Source: Candidatus Altimarinota bacterium (lineage in GTDB: Bacteria; Patescibacteriota; JACMRA01). From it: 35,206 nt of DNA. This document shows positions 15,462 through 31,377 of the stretch, piece by piece. Both the position numbers and the translations under genes were made by a program. Every line of letters begins with the position of its first letter. The first letter of the stretch is position 1. The notes beneath the pieces are model-generated. The model searched no databases and was not told the origin of the DNA. It worked only from the letters and a program-made list of their open reading frames with translations. The DNA is taken from NCBI GenBank assembly GCA_012031925.1, contig JAAUSE010000006.1, positions 1-35,206 of the forward strand. The letters are read 5' to 3'.

Positions 15462-18400
15462 CTAAATATTCCAATTATTTCCAGAAATATCAAAAAACTT
15501 ATTAAAATATTGAGTTAATTTTTCAAGCACAGTTTCTCGCTTTTTTGTTCGTTCACCAGTTTGCAAAAATCGTGATATTGGTGGTAAAATTTTACTAATA
15601 CTTGTTCCAGAAGTTACTACAAATCCATCTTTGAAAGCATTTTTAATATACAATAACGTTGCTTCTTTATCTAAGTTTTCCACTTCAATAATCTTATACA
15701 ACTCTTCAATTTTCTTTTTTTCTACAAATTCCCTCCAATCATCGTCTACATTTGCGTGAACATCAAGCGAGGCAATAAACTGATTGATAAGTTCTTTTTT
15801 ATTTCTAAGTTCCACACTGGAATCAATTGCTTTATTGATATCAATGAGTAGTTCTTTGTTTTCAGTATTACTGTCGTGATATTTTTTGATAAGTTCTAAC
15901 ACAAAATCAATAGTAATTTCCACTTGTTTGATAAGCTCCATTTCAAACACTATATCATCGTTCACATTTTCTTTCTCTACATTAGAATTTTGGCGATATT
16001 CATTATACAAATCAATGTATATACTATGATAGTCTTGTATGTCTCGAGGTGTTAACAATTCTTTACCTGTAAATTCATCAAAGGTAGTTAAAATATTTCT
16101 TACACGCAACAGAGAACCATACAAAGATATAAAGTCTTTTTGATTTTGCTCGCCGAGAATTCGCTTACCAACAGGAAAATTACTCGTTAGCTCTTCTACT
16201 AAGTTTTTATATCCTCTAACTTGCTGGTTCTCACTTACATATCCATCATAGTAATCTCTAAAAGATTTCAGTAGTACTATACCACTTGCTTCCTTGTCTC
16301 CAAATAAGGCTATCGCTTCGTTGGTAGCTTGTTCTAAGTTACGAAAACAAACGATATTTCCAAAGGTTTTGACACTATTTAGAATTCTATTTGTTCTAGA
16401 ATATGCTTGTACAAGCCCATGTAGACGCAAGTTTTTATCTACCCAAAGCGTATTGAGTGTGGTCGCGTCAAACCCTGTCAAAAACATATTTACTACAATC
16501 AAAATATCAATCTCCCGATTTTTTACCCGCAAACTAATATCTTTATAATAATTTTGAAATTTATCTGCCGAAGTATCATAAGAAGTTTTAAACATGGTAT
16601 TGTAATCTACAATCGCACTATCCAAAAAATCTCTAGAACTTACATCAAGCCCACTAGTATCTTCTGAATTTTCATCAACCATTATATCCGCCATTTCTCC
16701 GCTTTCTGCTTCGTTTACACCAAAGCTATAAATAACCGCTACTTTTAGTTTTTTATCACTTGGTAAATCAACCGTCTGCTTTTTAAATTCAGCATAATAC
16801 TTTTTGGCAACATCAATAGAAGAAACTGCAAAAATAGAATTAAACCCAGCCAGCCTTCTGTCATTTACTTTGTAAAAACTATTGCGTTTAGTTTTTTGGT
16901 CAAAGTGTTCTAAAATATACCTTACAATATTTCCCAATCGCTCTGGCGAAGACAGTACCGCTTCGCGATTAATATCACTTACCTTTTTGTCTTGAATATC
17001 CTCAGCTTCTTTAAAGGTAGAAATGTAATCAACCTTAAACGGCAATACGTTTTTGTCGGCGATTGCATTAACAATAGTATAGGTATGTAGTTTTTCACCA
17101 AATGCCTGCTCAGTAGTTCGCAAATTCACCAATCCACCAGAAGTAGAATTCTTAGCAAAAATAGGCGTACCAGTAAATCCAAACAAGTGATAGTTTTTAA
17201 ATGCTTTGGTAATAGCTTGGTGCATATCACCAAACTGACTGCGGTGACACTCATCAAAAATAATCACCATATGTCCACCAAAAATCTCATGACCTTTGTT
17301 TCCACCAATAAATCGATCCAGTTTTTGTATAGTGGTAATTATAATCTTTGACTCGGTATTTTCTAGTTGTTTTTTGAGAACCGATGTACTCGTGTTACTA
17401 TTAGCTGCACCTTTCTCAAACTTGTCGTACTCTTTCATGGTTTGGTAATCCAAGTCTTTCCTGTCAACCACAAACAAAACTTTATCTATATACGATAACT
17501 TACTCGCCAACTGTGCGGTCTTAAAACTAGTCAATGTTTTACCACTTCCTGTAGTGTGCCACACAAACCCACCAGCCTCCACGGTTCCCAAGTTTTTGTA
17601 GTTGGTACTTATCTCAATCCTATTTAAAATTCGCTCGGTTGCCACAATTTGATACGGCCTCATCACAAGCAGTAGTCTATCGGTTGTAAACACGCAATAC
17701 TTAGTCAAAATCTGCAAAATCGTGTGCTTAGCAAAAAACGTCTTAGCAAAATCCATCAAGTCGGTAATTGGTCGATTAGTGGCATCTGCCCACCAACTCG
17801 TAAACTCAAAGCTGTTACTAGTTTTTCGCCCCTTCTTGCTACTAGTTTTCCCCTTTTCTTTGATATGCTCTGCCCTTGTGGTGTTGCTGTAGTACTTGGT
17901 ATGGGTTCCATTGCTAATCACAAACAACTGCACGTACTCAAAAAGTCCACTGTCTGCCCAAAAACTTTCCCGTTTGTATCTGTTTATTTGATTAAACGCT
18001 TCCACGATTGGAACCCCACGGCGTTTGAGCTCCACGTGTATGAGTGGCAACCCGTTTACTAGCACCGTCACGTCATACCGATTTGCTCGCCGCCCTTCCT
18101 CGGTAGCGTATTGATTGATAACCTGCAAACTATTGTCGTGAATTGTATCCTTGCGTATGAGGTAAATATTTTTGCTTGACCCGTCATCCCGCAATAGGAT
18201 TTTGATATGATCTTCCTGAATAGTTGCCGTTTTATCCTCTATACTTTGATTGGGGTTGGCTATTTCGCTTTCAAAAAACCTTTTCCATTCATTGTCACTA
18301 AACACAATATCATTAAGTTTTTCCAATTGCCTGCGTAGGTTTGTAACCAAATCTTGTTCGGTAGTGAGGGCAATGTATTCATAGGCTTGAGTTTGTAGTT

Positions 18401-18533
18401 GCTTTATAAAAGCTTTCTCCAGCTCCGCTTCACTTTGGTAAGAAGTAGCTCGCTCGGTGGTTGATATGTACTCACTCACCACAGTACTTTGCGGGTTTTC
18501 GGCAACAAGTTTATAATTATTATTTTGTGACAT
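15462..18533 (-). CDS. hsdR: Type I restriction enzyme R subunit
   Basis: This 1023-residue motor and nuclease cuts unmodified DNA after translocation. The N-terminal PD-(D/E)xK nuclease has D154 (RYDVTV), E168-x-K170 (VELK) and the following QINRY. The SF2 helicase has Walker A TTGSGKT (327-333), DECH (427-430) and FGFTGTP, with motifs V/VI in DILIVVNMFLTGFDATTLN and QAYSRTNR. The C-terminal part (about 750-1023) is helical and binds the methylase. Length and motifs are complete, so it should be active. It starts 8 bases after fic and is the last gene of the operon, probably driven by the promoter at 19682-19710 as well as by readthrough. Confidence 0.97.
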   Translation of the reverse strand: MSQNNNYKLVAENPQSTVVSEYISTTERATSYQSEAELEKAFIKQLQTQAYEYIALTTEQDLVTNLRRQLEKLNDIVFSDNEWKRFFESEIANPNQSIEDKTATIQEDHIKILLRDDGSSKNIYLIRKDTIHDNSLQVINQYATEEGRRANRYDVTVLVNGLPLIHVELKRRGVPIVEAFNQINRYKRESFWADSGLFEYVQLFVISNGTHTKYYSNTTRAEHIKEKGKTSSKKGRKTSNSFEFTSWWADATNRPITDLMDFAKTFFAKHTILQILTKYCVFTTDRLLLVMRPYQIVATERILNRIEISTNYKNLGTVEAGGFVWHTTGSGKTLTSFKTAQLASKLSYIDKVLFVVDRKDLDYQTMKEYDKFEKGAANSNTSTSVLKKQLENTESKIIITTIQKLDRFIGGNKGHEIFGGHMVIIFDECHRSQFGDMHQAITKAFKNYHLFGFTGTPIFAKNSTSGGLVNLRTTEQAFGEKLHTYTIVNAIADKNVLPFKVDYISTFKEAEDIQDKKVSDINREAVLSSPERLGNIVRYILEHFDQKTKRNSFYKVNDRRLAGFNSIFAVSSIDVAKKYYAEFKKQTVDLPSDKKLKVAVIYSFGVNEAESGEMADIMVDENSEDTSGLDVSSRDFLDSAIVDYNTMFKTSYDTSADKFQNYYKDISLRVKNREIDILIVVNMFLTGFDATTLNTLWVDKNLRLHGLVQAYSRTNRILNSVKTFGNIVCFRNLEQATNEAIALFGDKEASGIVLLKSFRDYYDGYVSENQQVRGYKNLVEELTSNFPVGKRILGEQNQKDFISLYGSLLRVRNILTTFDEFTGKELLTPRDIQDYHSIYIDLYNEYRQNSNVEKENVNDDIVFEMELIKQVEITIDFVLELIKKYHDSNTENKELLIDINKAIDSSVELRNKKELINQFIASLDVHANVDDDWREFVEKKKIEELYKIIEVENLDKEATLLYIKNAFKDGFVVTSGTSISKILPPISRFLQTGERTKKRETVLEKLTQYFNKFFDISGNNWNI

Positions 18534-18541
18534 ATATGATT

Positions 18542-19670
18542 TTAGTTTTTATTAAATATATCGATATAACGTTTGTATATATAAGATTTTCCGTATGTTT
18601 GCTCAATGTCTTTTACCTCAAGTATTCCAAGATCCACTAGTCTATTAATGACATTTTGAGAACCTTGTCTGCTAAAGCCCGTCCAATCCTGAATTGTAGA
18701 AATTTTTACAATTGGCAAAGAAAACAAATATGGTAAGACCGTAATAGCACTTTCGGAAGCTGTTTTATTTAAAGTTTGAATCTTTAGCATATCCTCATAC
18801 CTTAGAGCTGTAATTTGTTGAACTGTTTCTATAGCTTCTTTTGCTACAGTAATAACTCCATCAAGATAAAAATCAAGCCACTTTTCAATTTTACCTTCGT
18901 GATAGTCATTTAATCTATCGTAATATGTTTGTTTGTGTTGTTTGAAATAAGATGAGAGGTAAAGAGTGGGTCTTTCAAGTAGCTTTGAATGTAACAAAAA
19001 TAAAGTAATCAAAAGCCTTCCAGTTCTACCATTACCATCCAAAAAAGGATGAAGTGTTTCAAATTGTGCGTGAATTAACCCAGCTTTTACAACTAAGTTA
19101 TAACTATCACTAGCATGAATAAATTGTTCCAAATCTCCAAGTGCTTTAATGAGATCACCAGGTGAAGGCGGTACAAATTCGGCATTATTTAAGTTTGTCC
19201 CACCGATCCAATTTTGGCTTTTGCGAAAATTTCCTGGGTCACTATAATGGCTGGTGCGTGCGTCTTTCATCAAAACCTCGTGTAACTCAGTAATAAATCT
19301 AAGGGAAATGGGGAATTTTTTTAGTCTTTCAATTCCGTAGTTTATTGCTTCAATATAATGATAAATATCATCAACATCGTCGTTTCTGTTAATCAGCTGC
19401 GTCTGTGCTTCGTATTCAATCGCATCTATAAATGTTGCCCTAGTCCCCTCTATTTGGTTTGAATTAGTAGCATCTTTACGAATATACATGGAAATAAAAA
19501 ATCCATATCAGGTAATAAAAGTGTTGATCCATCCAATTTTCCAATAATTCTTGTGGCTTCATTTATTTTTGAGTCAATGAACTATTGAAAGTACCCAAAT
19601 TATGAGGTGGAAAGGGTTCGGGTAAAAAGGATTTGTAGCCCGTAGTTTGATTAATATATGTTCCGATCAT
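18542..19670 (-). CDS. fic: Fic-domain AMP-transferase with C-terminal winged helix (two frameshifts)
   Basis: The catalytic motif HPFLDGNGRTGR is complete, so the protein should transfer AMP (or a similar group) to a target hydroxyl. The inhibitory motif SNQIEG sits in the N-terminal part (a class II Fic layout), and a winged helix (ISTIQDWTGFSRQGSQNVIN) ends the protein. An ATG at 19487 gives only 315 residues. Adding one base at the A run 19496-19501 and one at the T run 19566-19570 extends it upstream to ATG 19670 (MIGTYINQTTGYKSFLPEP, FPPHNLGTFNSSL), about 376 residues, as in full-length relatives. A consensus promoter 5 bases before this ATG supports that start. It lies between hsdS and hsdR; Fic proteins are recurrent passengers of type I loci, role uncertain. 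Confidence 0.9.
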
Positions 19671-19681
19671 AAAACTTTTAA

Positions 19682-19710
19682 ATTATAAACATTGTAACCA
19701 AACTTGTCAA
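19682..19710 (-). promoter_or_regulatory. Perfect consensus promoter for fic-hsdR
   Basis: On the minus strand TTGACA (19705-19710), a 17-base spacer and TATAAT (19682-19687), the only full consensus match I found in the window. The predicted start at about 19675 lies 5 bases before ATG 19670. Confidence 0.8.
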
Positions 19711-19752
19711 CGATTTCTTAAAACTGTGGACATTGTAACCAAACTTGTCAAC
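19689..19752 (-). repeat. Duplicated 23-bp element at the fic promoter (possible operator)
   Basis: An identical 23-bp sequence lies at 19689-19711 and 19730-19752, 41 bp apart. The first copy covers the -35 box and spacer of the fic promoter. The second has the TTGACA but no -10 box after it, so it is not simply a second promoter. The 41-bp period, about four helical turns, would suit a regulator bound at two sites on one face. Confidence 0.75.
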
Positions 19753-19765
19753 TATTTTGCTGTAA

Positions 19766-20974
19766 CTATCTTGGGACATATTCTTGGAAAGTTAAAAGTA
19801 AATTGCGGTAATATTCGTATTGAGATCGTCGGGAACGGAGTTCGGCAGAGAGACCAATACTAATATCATTAACCAAGGCATCAAACTTGTCGAGAATTGC
19901 CACAATCCGCTCTTGTTCTGATAATGGAGGAATTGGGATTTTGAATTTTTCAATTACAGTCCTTGATAACCTTGGCACACTTGCCCTTCTAACTCTAGAG
20001 AAGAAAAAAATCTCTTCCTTTTTCAAGTAATAAAATAAATATTTATTGTTTAATGTATTAGGACAAATTAAAGTAAAACAATCATCTGCCGCCCAAAAAT
20101 CAATTTTACTATAACCAACTGACCCAGCTGCACCAGCAGTAATAATAAATGTTGTATTAGCGTTATTATTATTTTTTTCATAATATCCAAGTGGTATCAT
20201 ACTATTTTGATAAACTGGAAAATCACCAATTGGATTAAGTTGTTTTTTGACTACACGAACTCCTCTTTTTAGGTTCACAATTTCTCCTAAGGTTTTCCAT
20301 TCTGCGTCTTTTTGGCTTGACAATAATTGCTCGCGGTAATACTCATATTGTTTCTTACGAGCCTCTAGCTCTGCCTCTAGCTCTGCCTCTAGCTCTGCCT
20401 CTAGCTCTGTGAAGTTATCCAATATCCTCACTATTTCTTGTTGAACCAACATCGGCGGCACCGGAACCTTAAATTTCTTTAGTTGTGTCATAGGAATACT
20501 AACAACTGTAGAGCCAGCTGATAGCTCAATTATTTTGCGAAGTGTGGTAACTGAGCTAATATAATATAGTAAATACTTAGAATTTAGTTTTGCTTGATCT
20601 GGCTTAATCACATACACACCTTCCTTAACATTCCAATTTGTTGGTGCGGTTTGAACAAGAGCAGTTTTACCAATTGTACCTGTGCCAGAAAATAAAACAT
20701 CTCCGACCTCAAGATTTGAACGATTATTAATTAACTTTAACCCTTCATCATTTACTTTATCCGTTTTGTCTAAAAATAATATGTTTATACCACCCAACTC
20801 TCGAACAGTCATGTAATAATTTTTAGCATCAGCTGTATTCAATCTAAAATTATTTCGAGGATTTAAGCCAGTTTTTAAAGATAATATTACCTCGCCAAGC
20901 TTCTTAAACTCGACCCCATCAGGACAAAGCTGGTTGATAAGTGTTTGTAAATGAGGTTGATGCTTTGGTGTCAT
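19766..20974 (-). CDS. hsdS: Type I restriction specificity subunit
   Basis: This 402-residue protein has two target recognition domains, each followed by a conserved helix. TRD1 is about residues 20-180 (opens FKKLGEVILSLKTGLNPR, ends KFKVPVPPMLVQQEIVRILD). TRD2 is about 225-370 (opens WKTLGEIVNLKRGVRV, ends KFKIPIPPLSEQERIVAILD). Each half recognises one side of a split DNA site and docks a methylase. The central helix holds four ELEA repeats before RKKQYEYYREQLL, the arrangement known in the EcoR124 family. It starts 3 bases after the OLD-like gene stop. Both halves look intact. Confidence 0.95.
   Translation of the reverse strand: MTPKHQPHLQTLINQLCPDGVEFKKLGEVILSLKTGLNPRNNFRLNTADAKNYYMTVRELGGINILFLDKTDKVNDEGLKLINNRSNLEVGDVLFSGTGTIGKTALVQTAPTNWNVKEGVYVIKPDQAKLNSKYLLYYISSVTTLRKIIELSAGSTVVSIPMTQLKKFKVPVPPMLVQQEIVRILDNFTELEAELEAELEAELEARKKQYEYYREQLLSSQKDAEWKTLGEIVNLKRGVRVVKKQLNPIGDFPVYQNSMIPLGYYEKNNNNANTTFIITAGAAGSVGYSKIDFWAADDCFTLICPNTLNNKYLFYYLKKEEIFFFSRVRRASVPRLSRTVIEKFKIPIPPLSEQERIVAILDKFDALVNDISIGLSAELRSRRSQYEYYRNLLLTFQEYVPR
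20361..20408 (-). repeat. Four 12-bp repeats encoding ELEA in the HsdS spacer
   Basis: Four exact head-to-tail copies of GCCTCTAGCTCT (plus strand) encode ELEA units in the helix between the two recognition domains. In EcoR124-type enzymes the count of such 4-residue units sets the length of the unspecific gap in the DNA site. Slippage would keep the frame. Confidence 0.92.
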
Positions 20975-20977
20975 ATA

Positions 20978-22617
20978 CTAAAATGGCATTTCAAAATCTA
21001 TATTTGTTTGAGGAATTGACGGCAAGTTTTCATACGTCTCTTTTTCATCATTACTTGAAAAAAGCAGAAAGTTTTTTAATACAGTTAAATCATTAGGTAT
21101 TTGATCAATTTTTATATTTTTAGCCCAATTTAAAGCATTTAATACTTTTTCCTTTTTTGTAGAAGAGTAGCCACATACAGTTTCAAAATCATAATCTAAT
21201 GGAATAGTTTTGTTCGAAATTTCTTCTTTTGTTAAATTTTCTAAAATCTTGTCAGTTGATTTCTTAGCTAAGTTCCTTGCATCCTCACTCTTTTTTGGAT
21301 CTTGATCGGTATCATATATTACTAAAAAATCAGAAATTCCAAGAAATTTACACACTTTTATAAAAAAAGGTATAAGATCTTTAGACTGGCAGTTTACTAT
21401 TGTGTAATTTATCTTTTTATTTTCTAACAAAACTTCAATTACATAAGGCAATGATTTTTCCTCAGTTTCACCCTCAACTAAAATCACCTTATCTGCAAAG
21501 AAAAGCTCATTTCGTTCATATGAAAATTTGGTTAGCAAATGTACTTTATTTTTTTCATTTTCATCAACTAATTCTGACAAGCTTCCTTGATTTGTCTTAT
21601 ATGTTCCATTAGCTCCTTTTTTTAACATTATTATGTTGTTTGCGTTATTTATTGATAAAAATAATGGTGAATGTGTGGTGTAAAATATCTGTGAGTTTTG
21701 AGAAATTTCGATAAAGGATTCATATAAACTTCTTTGAGCATTAGGAAATAAATACAATTCAGGTTCTTCAAATCCAAAAATTATATTTCCATTGCAATAT
21801 TTTGAATAAGCCTGAAAAATGGAAATAAGGACTAGGTTTTGTGTACCTGAACCGATTTCATTTATATTAAATATTTGATTACCTTCTTCAATTTGAATTT
21901 GCAAAGTTTTATAATACCATAAAGGATCATAAATATCTAGCTTTAAATTACAATGATTAGCATGTCCGTTTAAGTTACTATCCATTTTTTCCTTTAAAAT
22001 TGATTTAAATTTTGTGAAGGAGTATTTATTAGTTGCGTCTCCATCCAATAATTCTAACGGTTCTTTCATCAACTCCTTAAACTTACCTTCGTTCTCAATA
22101 TTTGTTCGAAAGTCTTCATCAATCTTTTTAAGAATTTTTCCAAGTAAAGTCCATTGGCTAATTGCGGTTTGTTTTTCAAGATTTCTATCAGCTGGTATGC
22201 AAATAAAGCTTATCTTACTTCTTATTTCCCCATTTCCATAAAACTCATTATCATTTTCATCATAAACTAAAAATTTAATTGAATTTCCACCATTATTATT
22301 AGTGCATGTAAGTTTAAACCTAGTTATTTCAACATTTCTTTTACTACCAGAAGTTGGTGTCAGATATACGCTTTCTAATTTTTGATCAAAAGAAATTTCG
22401 ATTTCAATTGTATTATTTGTGTCTCTGTTGTAAAAATCATCTCTTTTTAAAAAGCTCTTTCAGTGGGGTATGTTTCACCAAGTAAAATATTTATAGCTTT
22501 AAGAATATTAGATTTTCCACTACTATTTGCACCTACCAAAGCACATAATTCTGAAGGATCAAAGTCAATATTCTTTATCGATTTGAAATTTTTAATTTTT
22601 ATGTTTTTAATTTTCAT
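20978..22617 (-). CDS. OLD-family ATPase with C-terminal TOPRIM nuclease domain (one frameshift)
   Basis: The full protein is about 546 residues. It starts MKIKNIKIKNFKSIKNIDF with Walker A GANSSGKS (29-36). The frame breaks at the A run 22449-22453; one added base joins LLGETYPTERAF to LKRDDFYNRDTNN. Then come an ABC signature region (INEIGSGTQNLVL, near 250), Walker B IIFGFEEPELYLFP (about 277-290), a TTHSP switch, and a TOPRIM domain with VEGETEEKS (about 378) and YDTDQD (about 435). This is the layout of OLD nucleases and of the GajA subunit of Gabija; PARIS splits or fuses similar parts. No UvrD-like GajB is present. Its place between hsdM and hsdS, with 3-base gaps on both sides, means it is made together with the modification enzyme. 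Confidence 0.87.
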
Positions 22618-22620
22618 ATT

Positions 22621-24183
22621 CTAATTATTTCCTTCAATTTCCTTAACAATCTCATTAATAGCAATTCTAAGTTTGCTTTGTTTGGTTACTATTTGCTCAA
22701 TTTGGGCGTTTAGTACTGTAATATCAATTACCTCGCGGGTGTCTTTTTGCTCCACATAACTAGATACTGATAAATTGTAGTCGTTTTCGCCAATTAATTT
22801 GTTATCCACTAGCTTCGCGAAATGCTCTACATCTTCTCGCTTGGTAAATACTTCCAAAACTTGTTGACGATTAACTTCACTAAGTTTGTTTTTGTTGCCT
22901 CCGCGTACAAATGAACTAGAAGCATCTATAAATAAAGTTTTGTTGTCACTCTTGGATTTTTTGAGCACTACGATACACGTGGCGATTGTCGTCCCAAAAA
23001 ACAAATCGGGTGGAAGTTGAATTACCGCGTCCACGTAATTATTGTCTATCAAGTATTTACGGATTTTACCTTCTGCTCCACCACGATACAGAACACCTGG
23101 AAACTCAACTATTGCCGCCGTGCCGCTAGTTGAGAGCCATTTAAGCATATGCAAGGTAAACGCCAAATCAGCTTTGCTTTTGGGTGCGAGTACTCCAGCA
23201 AGTGAAAACCTAGGATCGTTGATCATGATTGGGTTACTATCTCCGTCCCACTTGATAGAATAGGGCGGATTAGACACAATAGCGTCAAATGGTTCGTCGT
23301 CCCAGTGTTTGGGATCAAGCAACGTATCACCATGAGCAATGTCAAATTTTTCGTAATTCACGTCATGCAAAAACATATTAATACGACACAAGTTATAGGT
23401 GGTGAGGTTGATCTCTTGACCATAAAACCCACCTCTTACATTATCTTTACCCAACACTTTGGCAAATTTGAGCAGCAAAGAACCAGACCCACAACAAGGA
23501 TCGTACACTTTATTAACTTCGGTTTTACCAACGGTAGTAATTTCGGCTAACAACTCACTTACTTCTTGCGGAGTGTAGTATTCTCCACCACTTTTACCTG
23601 CATTAGAGGCGTACATGGCCATCAAATATTCATACGCATCACCAAAAGCATCTATGGTATTATCGGCATATTCGCCCAATTTTAATTGACCAATCGCTTC
23701 CAAAAGTTTCACAAGTTGCTGGTTTCGCCGTTCTACAGTCGCCCCAAGTTTATTGGAATTAACATCGAGGTCATCAAAAAGTCCTTTTAAGTCTTCTTCA
23801 CTACTTGAGCCTTTGGCAGATAACTCAATATTATTAAAAACTGTTGTTAAGGTTTCGTTGAGATTGGAATCGGCGGGTGCCTTTTTACGTACATTTACAA
23901 AAAGTTCACTTGGCAAAATATAAAAACCTTTATCCGCCAACGTTTCAGTTCGCCCAAATTCCGCTGCTTCATCGGTAATGTTGGCATAATTGAATTCGGG
24001 GTGTAATTTTTGTTCTTCCTTATTAATATAGTTGGTAAGATTTTCACTTATAAAACGATAAAACAACATTCCAAGTACGTATTGTTTAAAGTCCCACCCA
24101 TCAATACTTCCACGTAAATCGTTTGCAATTTGCCAAATAGCTCTGTGAAGCTCGGCTCTTTCCTGTTCTTTGTGGTTGTTCAT
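22621..24183 (-). CDS. hsdM: Type I DNA N6-adenine methyltransferase M subunit
   Basis: This 520-residue protein has a helical HsdM N-terminal domain (WQIANDLRGSIDGWDFKQYV) and a class I methylase fold with motif I YDPCCGSGSLL (about 226-236) and the catalytic NPPY (about 306-309, in IVSNPPYSIKW). It transfers methyl from S-adenosylmethionine to adenine and protects host DNA; with HsdS it forms the core to which HsdR binds. It is the first gene of the defence operon. Upstream is TTGACA (24234-24239) without a convincing -10, so the promoter is unclear. Confidence 0.96.
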   Translation of the reverse strand: MNNHKEQERAELHRAIWQIANDLRGSIDGWDFKQYVLGMLFYRFISENLTNYINKEEQKLHPEFNYANITDEAAEFGRTETLADKGFYILPSELFVNVRKKAPADSNLNETLTTVFNNIELSAKGSSSEEDLKGLFDDLDVNSNKLGATVERRNQQLVKLLEAIGQLKLGEYADNTIDAFGDAYEYLMAMYASNAGKSGGEYYTPQEVSELLAEITTVGKTEVNKVYDPCCGSGSLLLKFAKVLGKDNVRGGFYGQEINLTTYNLCRINMFLHDVNYEKFDIAHGDTLLDPKHWDDEPFDAIVSNPPYSIKWDGDSNPIMINDPRFSLAGVLAPKSKADLAFTLHMLKWLSTSGTAAIVEFPGVLYRGGAEGKIRKYLIDNNYVDAVIQLPPDLFFGTTIATCIVVLKKSKSDNKTLFIDASSSFVRGGNKNKLSEVNRQQVLEVFTKREDVEHFAKLVDNKLIGENDYNLSVSSYVEQKDTREVIDITVLNAQIEQIVTKQSKLRIAINEIVKEIEGNN

Positions 24184-24757: not shown

Positions 24758-25516
24758 TTAGCTAATGCGCATTATTTTTTCTAACTTGCGGCCTTTGGCC
24801 AGTTCGTCCACCAATTTATCCAGATACCTTGCCTTTTGTGTTAACGGGTTTTTGATTTCTTCGACGCGGTAGCCACAAATAACACCTGTAATCAGTTGGG
24901 CATTTAGGTTTAGTGTTGCCTGCTTAAAAAAGGTTTCAAAAGTAGCATTGTTTGCAATGAGTTCGTGCAACTTGTTTTCACCATGGCCAGTAAGCCATTC
25001 AATTACTTGGTGCAGTTCAGCTTTTGTCCTGCCTTTTTTCTCAACTTTTGTAACGTAATGCGGATACACCGAAGCAAATGTCATTTTTGCAATTCGCTCA
25101 TCATGTATACTTGTATTGTTCATATTTTCTAGTTTTTCCAATTTACCTTTTCGTTTAACAATATTTTTATAGTCCCATTGAATTTCAATTGATTTTTGAA
25201 GCCATCTTTTCAAATCATTTTCATCAATTTCTAAAATACTATTATAAAATATAGACGCGTCTTTGAACTTTTTCCCTCTCACATTTAGTTTCACTTCTTC
25301 AAAATCAGCCCCACTCCAAAACATCAATCTAATTCCTAGCTTTTGTTTACTATATCCCACGATAGGGTTCCCTTCCAAAAACCAAACTGGATGACCATGC
25401 CATATTTTATTGTCAGATTTTGGTAAATTATTTGAAATAATCTGATATAACTTATTGCATATATCTTTTTCAGATTCTAATAAATTATTGTTGTATTCTG
25501 TTATTGTTTGAGGCAT
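24758..25516 (-). CDS. DUF1801-like domain fused to DUF2200
   Basis: From ATG 25516 (MPQTITEYNNNLLESEKDIC) the protein has about 252 residues. Residues 1-125 form a DUF1801/YdhG-like domain (SNNLPKSDNKIWHGHPVWFL, RLMFWSGADFEEV). Residues 128-252 form a complete DUF2200 domain (AKMTFASVYPHYVTKVEKKG, RTKAELHQVIEWLTGHGENK, GVICGYRVEEIKNPL, RYLDKLVDELAKG). Each is usually a free-standing protein of unknown role. The junction KLEKLEN-MNNTSIHDERIAK looks like two genes joined in frame, with the usual DUF2200 start Met inside. A single added base there would split them, so the fusion could be a sequencing effect. Confidence 0.78.
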   Translation of the reverse strand: MPQTITEYNNNLLESEKDICNKLYQIISNNLPKSDNKIWHGHPVWFLEGNPIVGYSKQKLGIRLMFWSGADFEEVKLNVRGKKFKDASIFYNSILEIDENDLKRWLQKSIEIQWDYKNIVKRKGKLEKLENMNNTSIHDERIAKMTFASVYPHYVTKVEKKGRTKAELHQVIEWLTGHGENKLHELIANNATFETFFKQATLNLNAQLITGVICGYRVEEIKNPLTQKARYLDKLVDELAKGRKLEKIMRIS

Positions 25517-25541
25517 AATTAATATGTATTCTAAAATTATT

Positions 25542-26036
25542 CTATAGGTATTTTTCGATGTCACTATATTTTTTTCCTGCAAGTACTCCTGCTGCTAATG
25601 AGTTTTGTTGAGTGATTTCTTTTTTGATATCGTACCTTGACAAGTCAAGTTCTTTTACTTCCTCTTCCCATTCAATATCCATCACTTTGAGTGGAGCAAG
25701 ATCACCCAAATACTCATCTATTTCTATGGTGTAGCCATTAAACCTTTTGGAGTAGCGAGTTTTTTCTAGCACATTTCCAATTAAGTTTTTTTCCAAAAAC
25801 CCATATTCGTAGTCAATTAAATTGATAGTTTCCTCAACCATAGTTGAGAGATCTCCTGAAGTTTTAGGATATTTTTTGGTCATAAAAAGCTTCTCACCAC
25901 GCTTGCGCAGTCGTATCATTGGATGATCTGCATCTGGGGGCAAATAAGTATCTTTGGTATATTCCTTTTTCCAATCATCAAGATTATCTGGTATAGAATT
26001 CAACAAATATGTTGATTCATTTTCGATTTCATACAT
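25542..26036 (-). CDS. CYTH-domain protein (triphosphate tunnel metalloenzyme family)
   Basis: From ATG 26036 the 164-residue protein begins YEIENESTYLL, close to the ExExK signature of the family (the K is E here). It continues with basic tunnel strands (MIRLRKRGEKLFMTKKYP), an acidic pair (MVEETINLIDYEYGFL), and TRYSKRFNGYTIEIDEYLGD and a final acidic strand. CYTH enzymes hydrolyse inorganic triphosphate or thiamine triphosphate, or make cAMP. The altered signature leaves activity open. It lies 25 bases upstream of the DUF1801-DUF2200 gene, same strand. Confidence 0.78.
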   Translation of the reverse strand: MYEIENESTYLLNSIPDNLDDWKKEYTKDTYLPPDADHPMIRLRKRGEKLFMTKKYPKTSGDLSTMVEETINLIDYEYGFLEKNLIGNVLEKTRYSKRFNGYTIEIDEYLGDLAPLKVMDIEWEEEVKELDLSRYDIKKEITQQNSLAAGVLAGKKYSDIEKYL

Positions 26037-26131: not shown

Positions 26132-27474
26132 TTAACTTTCGGTTTTTAAATGACGGCTTATATTTATTTTGTAAAACTTAGTTAGGTTTTTATATGGTTT
26201 TGATGTCCATGCAAAAACTGTAACAATTACCCCAACAAAACCAGCTGTGATAAATACGAGTGCTATTCCACGACTCTCTCCAGAACCAAACCAACTCCCA
26301 ATATACTCTACACCTTTACCTGTTGTCATAAAAGGTATAAATATAGATGAGGCAAGTGGACCAACTAAAAAAGCTGTAACTGGCATAGCTGAAGATTCAA
26401 TACTTTGTGCAAACCCAAAAACTCGCCCTTGTCTTTCTTGTGGAACAATATTTTGAATCACTGTTTGTTCTGCCGATTCTGCAATTGGCATTAAAAACAT
26501 CCAAACAACCATCCCGATTATTAATAAAATAATTGAAGCTTGAATAGGGAAAATAATACATGAAATCCACGACACAACATTTACAATCATAATAGATTTT
26601 AATGGGTTTTTACCAACTCCATATTTTGCAACAAACATCCCACCAGCTATCATAGCAAAGCTTACTCCACCCCACAAAAATCCCCATGTTTCTACATTCA
26701 CCAGCGACAAACCATATATATCCATTAGAGCCATAAATACTCCCCCTAAAAAATTATTGATAGACTGAAAAAATATCAAAGCTAGTAGCCCAGGTATAGA
26801 ACTAACAATTGCAATTGTTCCTATAATATCTAGTTTTTTTTGATTTTCGTTGTTTTCTATAGTTAGTTTTTCTGGAAAAGCCAAAAAAGCAATATGTAAA
26901 AGTGGGATTAAAGTAAAAAATATAGCTATCAATAGTGCATAGTTCATACCAAAAAACTTATAACAATTCCACTAAAAATAGAAGTAAGCGAAAATGAAAT
27001 ACCTTGCACAGTACCAACAAGCCCGTTGGCTTTATCGCGTTCATGTTCATTATAAAGAAGGCTAACAGATGTAGAAAGTGCTATCAAACGCATATTTCCA
27101 GCAACTGTGCCAATCATTAAGATAGCTACAAATAACCATAACATTGGAGAAGTCACCAACACTTTTGTGTTAAATATAGAAACAAAATATATTACCGATC
27201 CAAAGCTAAAAGCAAACAGCGAAATAATACTTGATACTACCATTGCAGTTTTTTTTCGGTGATTATCAACATATCCACCAATTATTACTGCTCCAATCAT
27301 ATTAGACACCGCAAAAATTCCAGCTATCACAGAAGCTACAATCACTGATCTTGTCTCTAATATTGCCCAGAATGTTAGGGCAAACCAAACAAAGTTATTA
27401 GTAAAGCTTGCAATCAAATTATTTATAAGTAAATTGTAAAAAAGATATTTTTTTGGTTTTTTTAAATTTGACAT
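26132..27474 (-). CDS. MFS transporter (one frameshift)
   Basis: Two adjacent frames (N part from ATG 27474, C part after 26950) join into one 447-residue transporter when one base is added in the A run 26951-26956: SGIVISF continues FGMNYALLIAIFFTLI. About twelve hydrophobic helices fit the major facilitator fold. GGYVDNHRKK after helix 2 is the motif A loop. The pattern resembles EntS-type drug or siderophore exporters of the MFS_3 group, with PQERQGRVFG as the matching loop of the second half. Substrate unknown. A strong promoter lies 80-odd bases upstream. Confidence 0.85.
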
Positions 27475-28445: not shown

Positions 28446-28883
28446 TTATTTTATCCTACACGAACACTCATGATGTTCACTAATATACTTAATTGTTTCA
28501 ATGCACAGTAATTTCAAGACTTCGAGGTCTATGTCTGCAAGCTTGTTAACGTACGTGCACGCTTTACTTTGTTTGAATTTTCCAAGTTTTGGTAGTATTG
28601 CTTTGCTTTTTTCTGTGTCAGAGTAAACGTAAAGCGAAAACGCTGCTTTTCTGGGGGAAAATGCTATTACAGGCGAATCACCTTCATGACCGCTCGCGTA
28701 TTTGTAATGATAAGTGCCAAATCCAATAATAGAAGGACCCCACATCTTTGGTTTAGAGTTAGACCACTCTTGCATCAATGAAATTAGTCTATAACTATCA
28801 GCTTTTTTCTGTTGATTTTGTACAAATGATTCTAAAAATTCAGAAACTTCTTGCCCCGTGTAAACTGTCTTGGTCTTCGCCAT
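28446..28883 (-). CDS. DUF1801 protein
   Basis: This 145-residue protein carries the DUF1801 pattern: SLMQEWSNSKPKMWGPSIIG, FGTYHYKYASGHEGD, VIAFSPRKAAFSLYV and a C-terminal helix. The fold is like YdhG/frataxin-type small domains, function unknown. It is the second of three DUF1801-like genes here. It starts 15 bases after the corrected stop of the VOC gene, forming a two-gene operon. Confidence 0.85.
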   Translation of the reverse strand: MAKTKTVYTGQEVSEFLESFVQNQQKKADSYRLISLMQEWSNSKPKMWGPSIIGFGTYHYKYASGHEGDSPVIAFSPRKAAFSLYVYSDTEKSKAILPKLGKFKQSKACTYVNKLADIDLEVLKLLCIETIKYISEHHECSCRIK

Positions 28884-31014: not shown

Positions 31015-31377
31015 CTATTTTGTCACCTCTTTTTTTCTAAATAATATTAATTTCTTTATAAAGTCCACAGGTAATGGTTTAATATTTGGTAATAATATGG
31101 CTGACTTTGTGACTTTGAACTGGCTTAATTCTTCACTAAATTCTTTCAAAAGCTCTTTACTCCATACATTTGCAAGAGTGATGTGATTAGTGTATGCAGA
31201 ATAATAAATAATTATATCTTTGCCAATACGAAAGGCAGGTATTTGGTAATGAATAATTTCTTCTGTTTCAGGGGCAGCTTTCTTGATTGTCTGTCGAATA
31301 ACCTCCATCCTTTCTTGTTTTTCTTGAGGAAATGTTTTGTGATACTCATCAATTGTTTGGTAGTTTGTTTTAGCCAT
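31015..31377 (-). CDS. DUF1801 (YdhG-like) protein
   Basis: This 120-residue protein has the typical opening YQTIDEYHKTFPQEKQERME, then RQTIKKAAPETEEIIHYQIP, AFRIGKDIIIYYSAYTNHIT and a basic end with KKLILFRKK. This is the YdhG branch of DUF1801, a frataxin-like fold of unknown function. It is the third such domain in 7 kb. It lies 55 bases downstream of the SWIM-like gene, same strand. Confidence 0.88.
   Translation of the reverse strand: MAKTNYQTIDEYHKTFPQEKQERMEVIRQTIKKAAPETEEIIHYQIPAFRIGKDIIIYYSAYTNHITLANVWSKELLKEFSEELSQFKVTKSAILLPNIKPLPVDFIKKLILFRKKEVTK

Follow-up and report, generated by a model that had tools for sequence, protein, structure and literature searches.

A pair of exact 23 bp repeats upstream of fic, in a type I restriction-modification locus of a Candidatus Altimarinota bacterium, is probably one half of a larger structure: a four-half-site operator array lying over the fic-hsdR promoter, through which the encoded Fic protein, a member of the SoFic family, would regulate its own expression. 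The locus lies in a 35,206-nucleotide stretch of contig JAAUSE010000006.1 (hereafter, the window). The array layout recurs upstream of SoFic genes in unrelated genomic neighbourhoods, and its sequence varies with that of the SoFic winged helix.

Structure of the hsdS-fic gap

On the minus strand the genes run hsdM, an OLD-like ATPase-TOPRIM gene, hsdS, gap, fic, hsdR (Table 1). The three hsd products belong to the HsdR, HsdM and HsdS families (TIGR00348, TIGR00497 and Methylase_S), placing a complete set of type I restriction-modification families at a single locus. The hsdS stop (19766) and the fic ATG (19670) are separated by 95 bp. The original prediction had described a consensus promoter in this gap, and an exact 23 bp copy of its -35/spacer region 41 bp upstream that lacks a -10 box; both were confirmed. 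The TTGACA-17-TATAAT sequence before fic is the sole 12/12 sigma70 match in the window (both strands scanned; ~0.09 expected), the two exact copies of GTTGACAAGTTTGGTTACAATGT lie 41 bp apart from start to start, and no -10 box is present at the distal copy. Both copies are enclosed by a weaker, 40 nt direct repeat (85%; 19677–19757). No further match to GTTGACAAGTTTGGTTACAATGT within three mismatches was found in the organism's own genome (1,068,472 bases searched), and none was found in shuffled versions of the window.

Table 1. Features of the fic-hsdR promoter region and the surrounding restriction-modification genes (positions are those of the window)
Feature	Position	Strand	Remarks
hsdR	15462..18533	(-)	starts 8 bp past fic stop; co-transcription with fic presumed
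SoFic-family fic gene	18542..19670	(-)	class II inhibitory motif SNQIEG; catalytic motif HPFLDGNGRTGR; C-terminal winged helix
hsdS-fic intergenic gap, 95 bp	19671..19765	(-)	houses promoter and putative operator array
Consensus sigma70 promoter, TTGACA(19710)-17-TATAAT(19682)	19682..19710	(-)	in region of proximal 23 bp copy
23 bp repeat GTTGACAAGTTTGGTTACAATGT, proximal copy	19689..19711	(-)	exact
23 bp repeat GTTGACAAGTTTGGTTACAATGT, distal copy	19730..19752	(-)	exact
Putative half-site R2, ATGTTTATAAT	19682..19692	(-)	relatives-only model; includes -10 hexamer
Putative half-site F2, ATCGTTGACAA	19704..19714	(-)	relatives-only model; includes -35 hexamer
Putative half-site R1, ATGTCCACAGT	19723..19733	(-)	relatives-only model; opposite orientation; weakest of the four
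Putative half-site F1, ATAGTTGACAA	19745..19755	(-)	relatives-only model; overlaps distal 23 bp copy
hsdS	19766..20974	(-)	upstream of gap
OLD-like ATPase-TOPRIM ORF	20978..22072	(-)	N-terminal part read in a different frame, up to about 22,620
hsdM	22621..24183	(-)	

Two other explanations of the gap sequence were considered and rejected. Firstly, an RNA hairpin or attenuator was discarded because predicted structure in the gap does not exceed chance (z +1.5). Secondly, the repeat is not protein-coding: its translation, IVDKFGYNV, falls in two different frames, 41 is not a multiple of three, and no ORF covers both copies.

Transcription from this promoter is predicted to start near 19675, so the leader would be just ~5 nt long. 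With only 11 bp separating the -10 box from the fic ATG (19671–19682), the predicted transcript is nearly leaderless, and carries no Shine-Dalgarno sequence. No terminator was found between hsdS and fic, so read-through is possible and transcripts from hsdM may also reach hsdR. Hence the proposed separation of modification and restriction genes under different promoters stands in part: fic and hsdR, 8 bp apart, would share a promoter, but one without a terminator to set it off from hsdS.

The fic gene and its place in the locus

By sequence, the window Fic belongs to the SoFic family. It matches the PADLOC SoFic profile (E=2.5e-100; profile positions 55–360 of 361), and SoFic crystal structures are among its best relatives, the alignment to these chains extending through the C-terminal domain to residue 314 and placing a winged helix at the C-terminus. 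The catalytic motif conforms to the Fic motif HPFxDGNGRxxR, and SNQIEG to the N-terminal inhibitory motif [ST]xxxE[GN]. The score of 139.8 bits lies under the 550 bit NCBI cut-off for the SoFic equivalog, and so we call the protein a family member rather than a proven SO_4266 orthologue. SoFic is known to carry a C-terminal wHTH; as of 2023, no DNA binding by SoFic had been demonstrated (PMC10628234). Overproduced SoFic is toxic: wild-type EcSofic could be cloned only under tight control (PMC12249575). No SoFic operator was found in the same 2025 paper.

In this assembly, fic is not one open frame, a point that the original prediction did not bring up. It carries two one-base shifts, near 19566 (an A5 run) and 19490 (a T6 run): the frame from the 19670 ATG ends after 35 codons, and the second shift is needed to enter the intact downstream ORF (18542–19489, 315 aa), which retains the inhibitory motif, the catalytic motif and the winged helix. 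The OLD-like ATPase gene is likewise broken: a frameshift in a TTTTTAAAAA run (22072–22620) leaves its N-terminal, P-loop half in another frame. An MFS transporter gene at 26132–27474 consists of two overlapping ORFs (profile positions 1–147 and 153–343) divided at a T6 run, probably by an error of the same sort.

Should the fic shifts be genuine, this locus may lack a working regulator. In that case fic would be a decaying pseudogene, and the promoter and array relics that now do no more than give hsdR a constitutive promoter; the frameshifts in the OLD-like and MFS genes could be taken as signs of the same decay. However, each of the four breaks lies in a homopolymer of five bases or more, as is typical of sequencing error, and only ~9% of the window lies in or beside such runs. 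The functional motifs of Fic are also intact, and the hsdR, hsdM and hsdS frames are open. The position of the breaks favours sequencing error without proving it, and we consider a decaying fic unlikely. The 95 bp length of the gap is correct only if the fic breaks are sequencing errors, or if the N-terminus is still translated. Our reading of the array presumes that fic is intact in the organism itself.

Comparison with other restriction-modification loci bears on how fic came to lie before hsdR. Across ~80 loci with an HsdR related to that of the window, hsdS usually abuts hsdR, frequently with an overlap of a few bases, and in none does fic lie between the two. Given this direct adjoining of hsdS and hsdR elsewhere, fic plus its upstream region looks like a cassette captured at the hsdS/hsdR joint. 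Two related restriction-modification loci carry fic at other positions (L058 has it between hsdM and hsdS, L054 upstream of hsdM), and fic directly precedes hsdR in L175 and L176. The hsdS-gap-fic-hsdR order, together with the array, is also found in a genome belonging to the same family (L137/L166), where HsdR is quite different (26% identity). Searches for copies of the whole locus on plasmids, and for viral contigs bearing close Fic relatives, found none.

Two further observations concern gene content. Plasmid pSYSX of the laboratory cyanobacterium Synechocystis PCC 6803 (L201, 5446–9050) carries a SoFic-like gene between type I hsdS and hsdR, on the opposite strand and with only a partial array upstream (p=0.08). 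The window itself contains three DUF1801-domain genes within ~7 kb (24758–25582, 28446–28883 and 31015–31377), one of them an in-frame fusion with a DUF2200 domain.

Half-site arrays upstream of SoFic genes

Conservation of the repeat was examined upstream of SoFic homologues (~30–61% identical) in further genomes of this phylum, with one genome taken per species. Most of these relatives are solitary genes in unrelated neighbourhoods, many of which contain no restriction-modification genes. Upstream of them we find a common layout: four half-sites of ~11 bp, in alternating orientation (F-R-F-R), every ~20–22 bp. Half-sites of the same orientation are 40–42 bp apart, which the 41 bp window repeat fits. 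The half-site sequence differs from locus to locus while the layout is kept. For example, L133 has four identical copies of TTTGTTGACAT (at -76, -54, -34 and -13), L135 has TTTGTATACAT (-75/-53/-33/-12), L142 has TTAGTATACAT (-84/-62/-43/-21), and L159 has AAAGTAGAATA (-73/-52/-33/-12).

The self-consistency of each array was scored against dinucleotide shuffles, with 69 non-fic upstream regions from the same loci as controls. A score of p<=0.01 was reached by 23 of 43 relatives and by one of the 69 controls (Fisher 4e-11); start codons were set by a fixed rule, and wrongly placed ones conceal some of the arrays in this count. Some SoFic upstream regions are without an array, among them those of L186, L180 and L198. 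The layout also recurs on named plasmids from several phyla: in a set of 18 plasmid-borne SoFic genes, with spacing ranges fixed before the test, 10 have arrays at p<0.05; among 40 control genes, 3 do (p=1.5e-4). The plasmids come mostly from Rhizobiales and other Alphaproteobacteria; Cyanobacteria, Lachnospira, Thermus, Citrobacter and Cupriavidus are also represented. The four-half-site layout upstream of SoFic genes is apparently new to the open-licence literature.

The one control gene to pass p<=0.01 is of interest in its own right. It lies just upstream of fic in L165 (8003–8884), is possibly BRO/antirepressor-like (judged by eye), and has an array of its own, spaced in the same way (21,19,21). 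SoFic control may, from this example, extend beyond the protein's own gene.

A half-site model (consensus TTTGTTTACAT) was then trained on the relatives only, with the window excluded. The model's top four-site array in the window is the fic gap, which ranks first of 35,196 placements and is equalled in 0 of 2000 shuffles. The four half-sites (Table 1) are spaced at 22/19/22, and their offsets from the ATG (-85/-63/-44/-22) are those of L136. When each locus was left out of training in turn, the fic upstream region was the top placement in that locus 12 times out of 13; the array of L137, a locus outside the training set, likewise ranked first. No second array scoring above the fic gap was found in the window, for example before hsdM.

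The window array has several individual features. R1 and R2 are weaker than in the relatives, and the promoter sits on F2/R2, while in most relatives it is displaced by about one half-site. The 13 bp spacer is identical in the window's two units, which makes the 23-mer appear longer than a half-site. When the relatives' model is set aside, an alternative register scores slightly better for self-consistency, at 45 against 43 for the model's register (the latter counted by hand); the exact half-site boundaries are thus less certain in the window than the existence of an array. A search for the exact 23-mer in 192 relatives gave two matches outside the organism's own genome, each with three mismatches, which equals the level of a reversed-pattern control. 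What is conserved, then, is the 41 bp spacing, the alternating layout and the consensus, rather than the 23-mer itself. The paired operator initially proposed is supported in kind by this layout, but expands from two copies to four putative half-sites, or two inverted pairs.

The repeat could instead be a simple accident: a 41 bp tandem duplication, generated by replication slippage around a strong promoter, whose second copy is a neutral, non-regulatory remnant. The 40 nt direct repeat at 41 bp spacing and the missing distal -10 box speak for such an event. Yet the 40–42 bp spacing recurs before fic at unrelated loci and in unrelated sequence, and a model built without the window ranks the fic gap first. 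Duplication could be the origin of the array; it leaves the conservation unexplained, and as a full account we judge it distinctly improbable.

If the array serves SoFic itself, its sequence is expected to follow the DNA-binding part of the protein. Among 31 loci with arrays (window included), operator similarity correlates with identity over the helix-turn-helix stretch (r=0.60), in a test that treats loci as exchangeable, such that shared ancestry can inflate its outcome. With catalytic-domain identity removed, the partial correlation is still 0.35 (P=0.0005), against 0.12 for the converse. At the level of single sites, TRAGAQ recognition helices pair with GTATACA/GTTTACA sites, and L133, with SREG, has GTTGACA, as does the window with SRQG. 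The operator tracks the winged helix better than it tracks the catalytic domain, which fits the prediction of a self-encoded DNA binder and lends support to the earlier nomination of the winged-helix Fic protein as likely autoregulator.

The same evidence counts against an operator for a host or neighbouring regulator, such as an RptR-like repressor of restriction-modification islands. RptR does repress an island whose toxin lies between hsdS and hsdR, via direct repeats over the -10 (PMC12255303). However, the arrays described here accompany fic through unrelated neighbourhoods, many without restriction-modification genes, and track its winged helix; moreover, TAGCTA, the RptR site, is unlike the window half-sites, and the gap contains no TAGCTA palindromes, TAGCTA being absent from its sequence. 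A regulator other than SoFic is therefore very unlikely.

Proposed regulation and comparison with known systems

We propose that SoFic dimers would grip the two inverted pairs, F1-R1 and F2-R2, via their C-terminal winged helices. The F2-R2 pair spans the -35 and -10 of a strong sigma70 promoter, and bound SoFic would thus be expected to shut off its own transcription. Since both hexamers lie inside putative SoFic sites, negative autoregulation fits better than activation, and would keep the toxin low. With hsdR starting 8 bp after fic, HsdR would be held down together with SoFic; capture of fic between hsdS and hsdR would then have created a shared promoter, through which SoFic may set both its own toxic activity and the level of HsdR.

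C proteins of type II restriction-modification systems are small HTH proteins that activate their own operon. A timer of this type, delaying HsdR upon entry into a new cell as the original prediction envisaged, could draw on a promoter before hsdR distinct from that of hsdM-hsdS and on a DNA-binding protein encoded on the same presumed transcript, but is highly improbable here: sites over the core promoter occupy a repressor position, a full-consensus promoter would be strong without an activator, and no terminator insulates it from hsdS. The delay finds no support in the array, whose position over -35 and -10 suggests autorepression; in a naive cell, without SoFic, the promoter would be fully on at the start, predicting an early burst of HsdR.

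Autorepression by SoFic would bear on how single-gene toxic defence proteins stay silent before infection. Because the operator layout can be read from sequence alone, it provides a predicted binding site for each SoFic gene and makes regulation testable, and the restriction-modification case suggests a route by which a mobile toxin cassette can take over control of a restriction subunit. A broader scheme, which we offer as speculation and think quite unlikely to hold in full, is that SoFic proteins are widespread self-regulating defence toxins with their own four-half-site operators and a winged-helix/operator code; situated before hsdR, the toxin would also repress restriction, and a phage that displaces SoFic from its operator would raise both toxin and nuclease (a built-in trip-wire that ties restriction to abortive infection).

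Four known systems resemble parts of this arrangement. C-protein systems share a DNA-binding protein gene just before the restriction gene. They differ in that the window has a large AMPylator, with putative sites over the core promoter; fic is the only gene between promoter and hsdR, and no small HTH activator is encoded there. The RptR-controlled RMS-DarTG2 island has a toxin gene between hsdS and hsdR and repeated sites over a promoter, demonstrating that such an arrangement exists (PMC12255303). There, control of the entire island rests with a separate 9 kDa repressor encoded at its start (PMC12255303), while in the window the toxin itself would regulate, with only fic-hsdR downstream.

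The SoFic single-gene phage-defence system (SO_4266 / 3EQX; EcSofic, PMC12249575) shares with the window protein its family, class II inhibitory motif, catalytic motif and winged helix. Known SoFic genes are usually solitary, whereas the window copy sits inside a restriction-modification operon, and DNA binding or an operator is unreported for SoFic in the open-licence literature found.

A regulatory parallel is offered by CccR, a Fic-HTH protein of Yersinia pseudotuberculosis, a dimer of which represses its own promoter via inverted repeats near the -35/-10 (PMC9755527). Like CccR, the window protein combines a Fic domain with a C-terminal HTH and is preceded by putative inverted repeats that overlap its own -35 (F2) and -10 (R2). 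CccR differs in being a secreted effector with no link to restriction-modification, and in using one pair of 10 bp repeats with a 26 bp spacer in place of four half-sites every 19–22 bp. The DNA-binding helices (HTHs) of CccR are 70 Å apart (PMC9755527), and a half-site spacing of 20–22 bp corresponds to ~68–75 Å, close to that separation.
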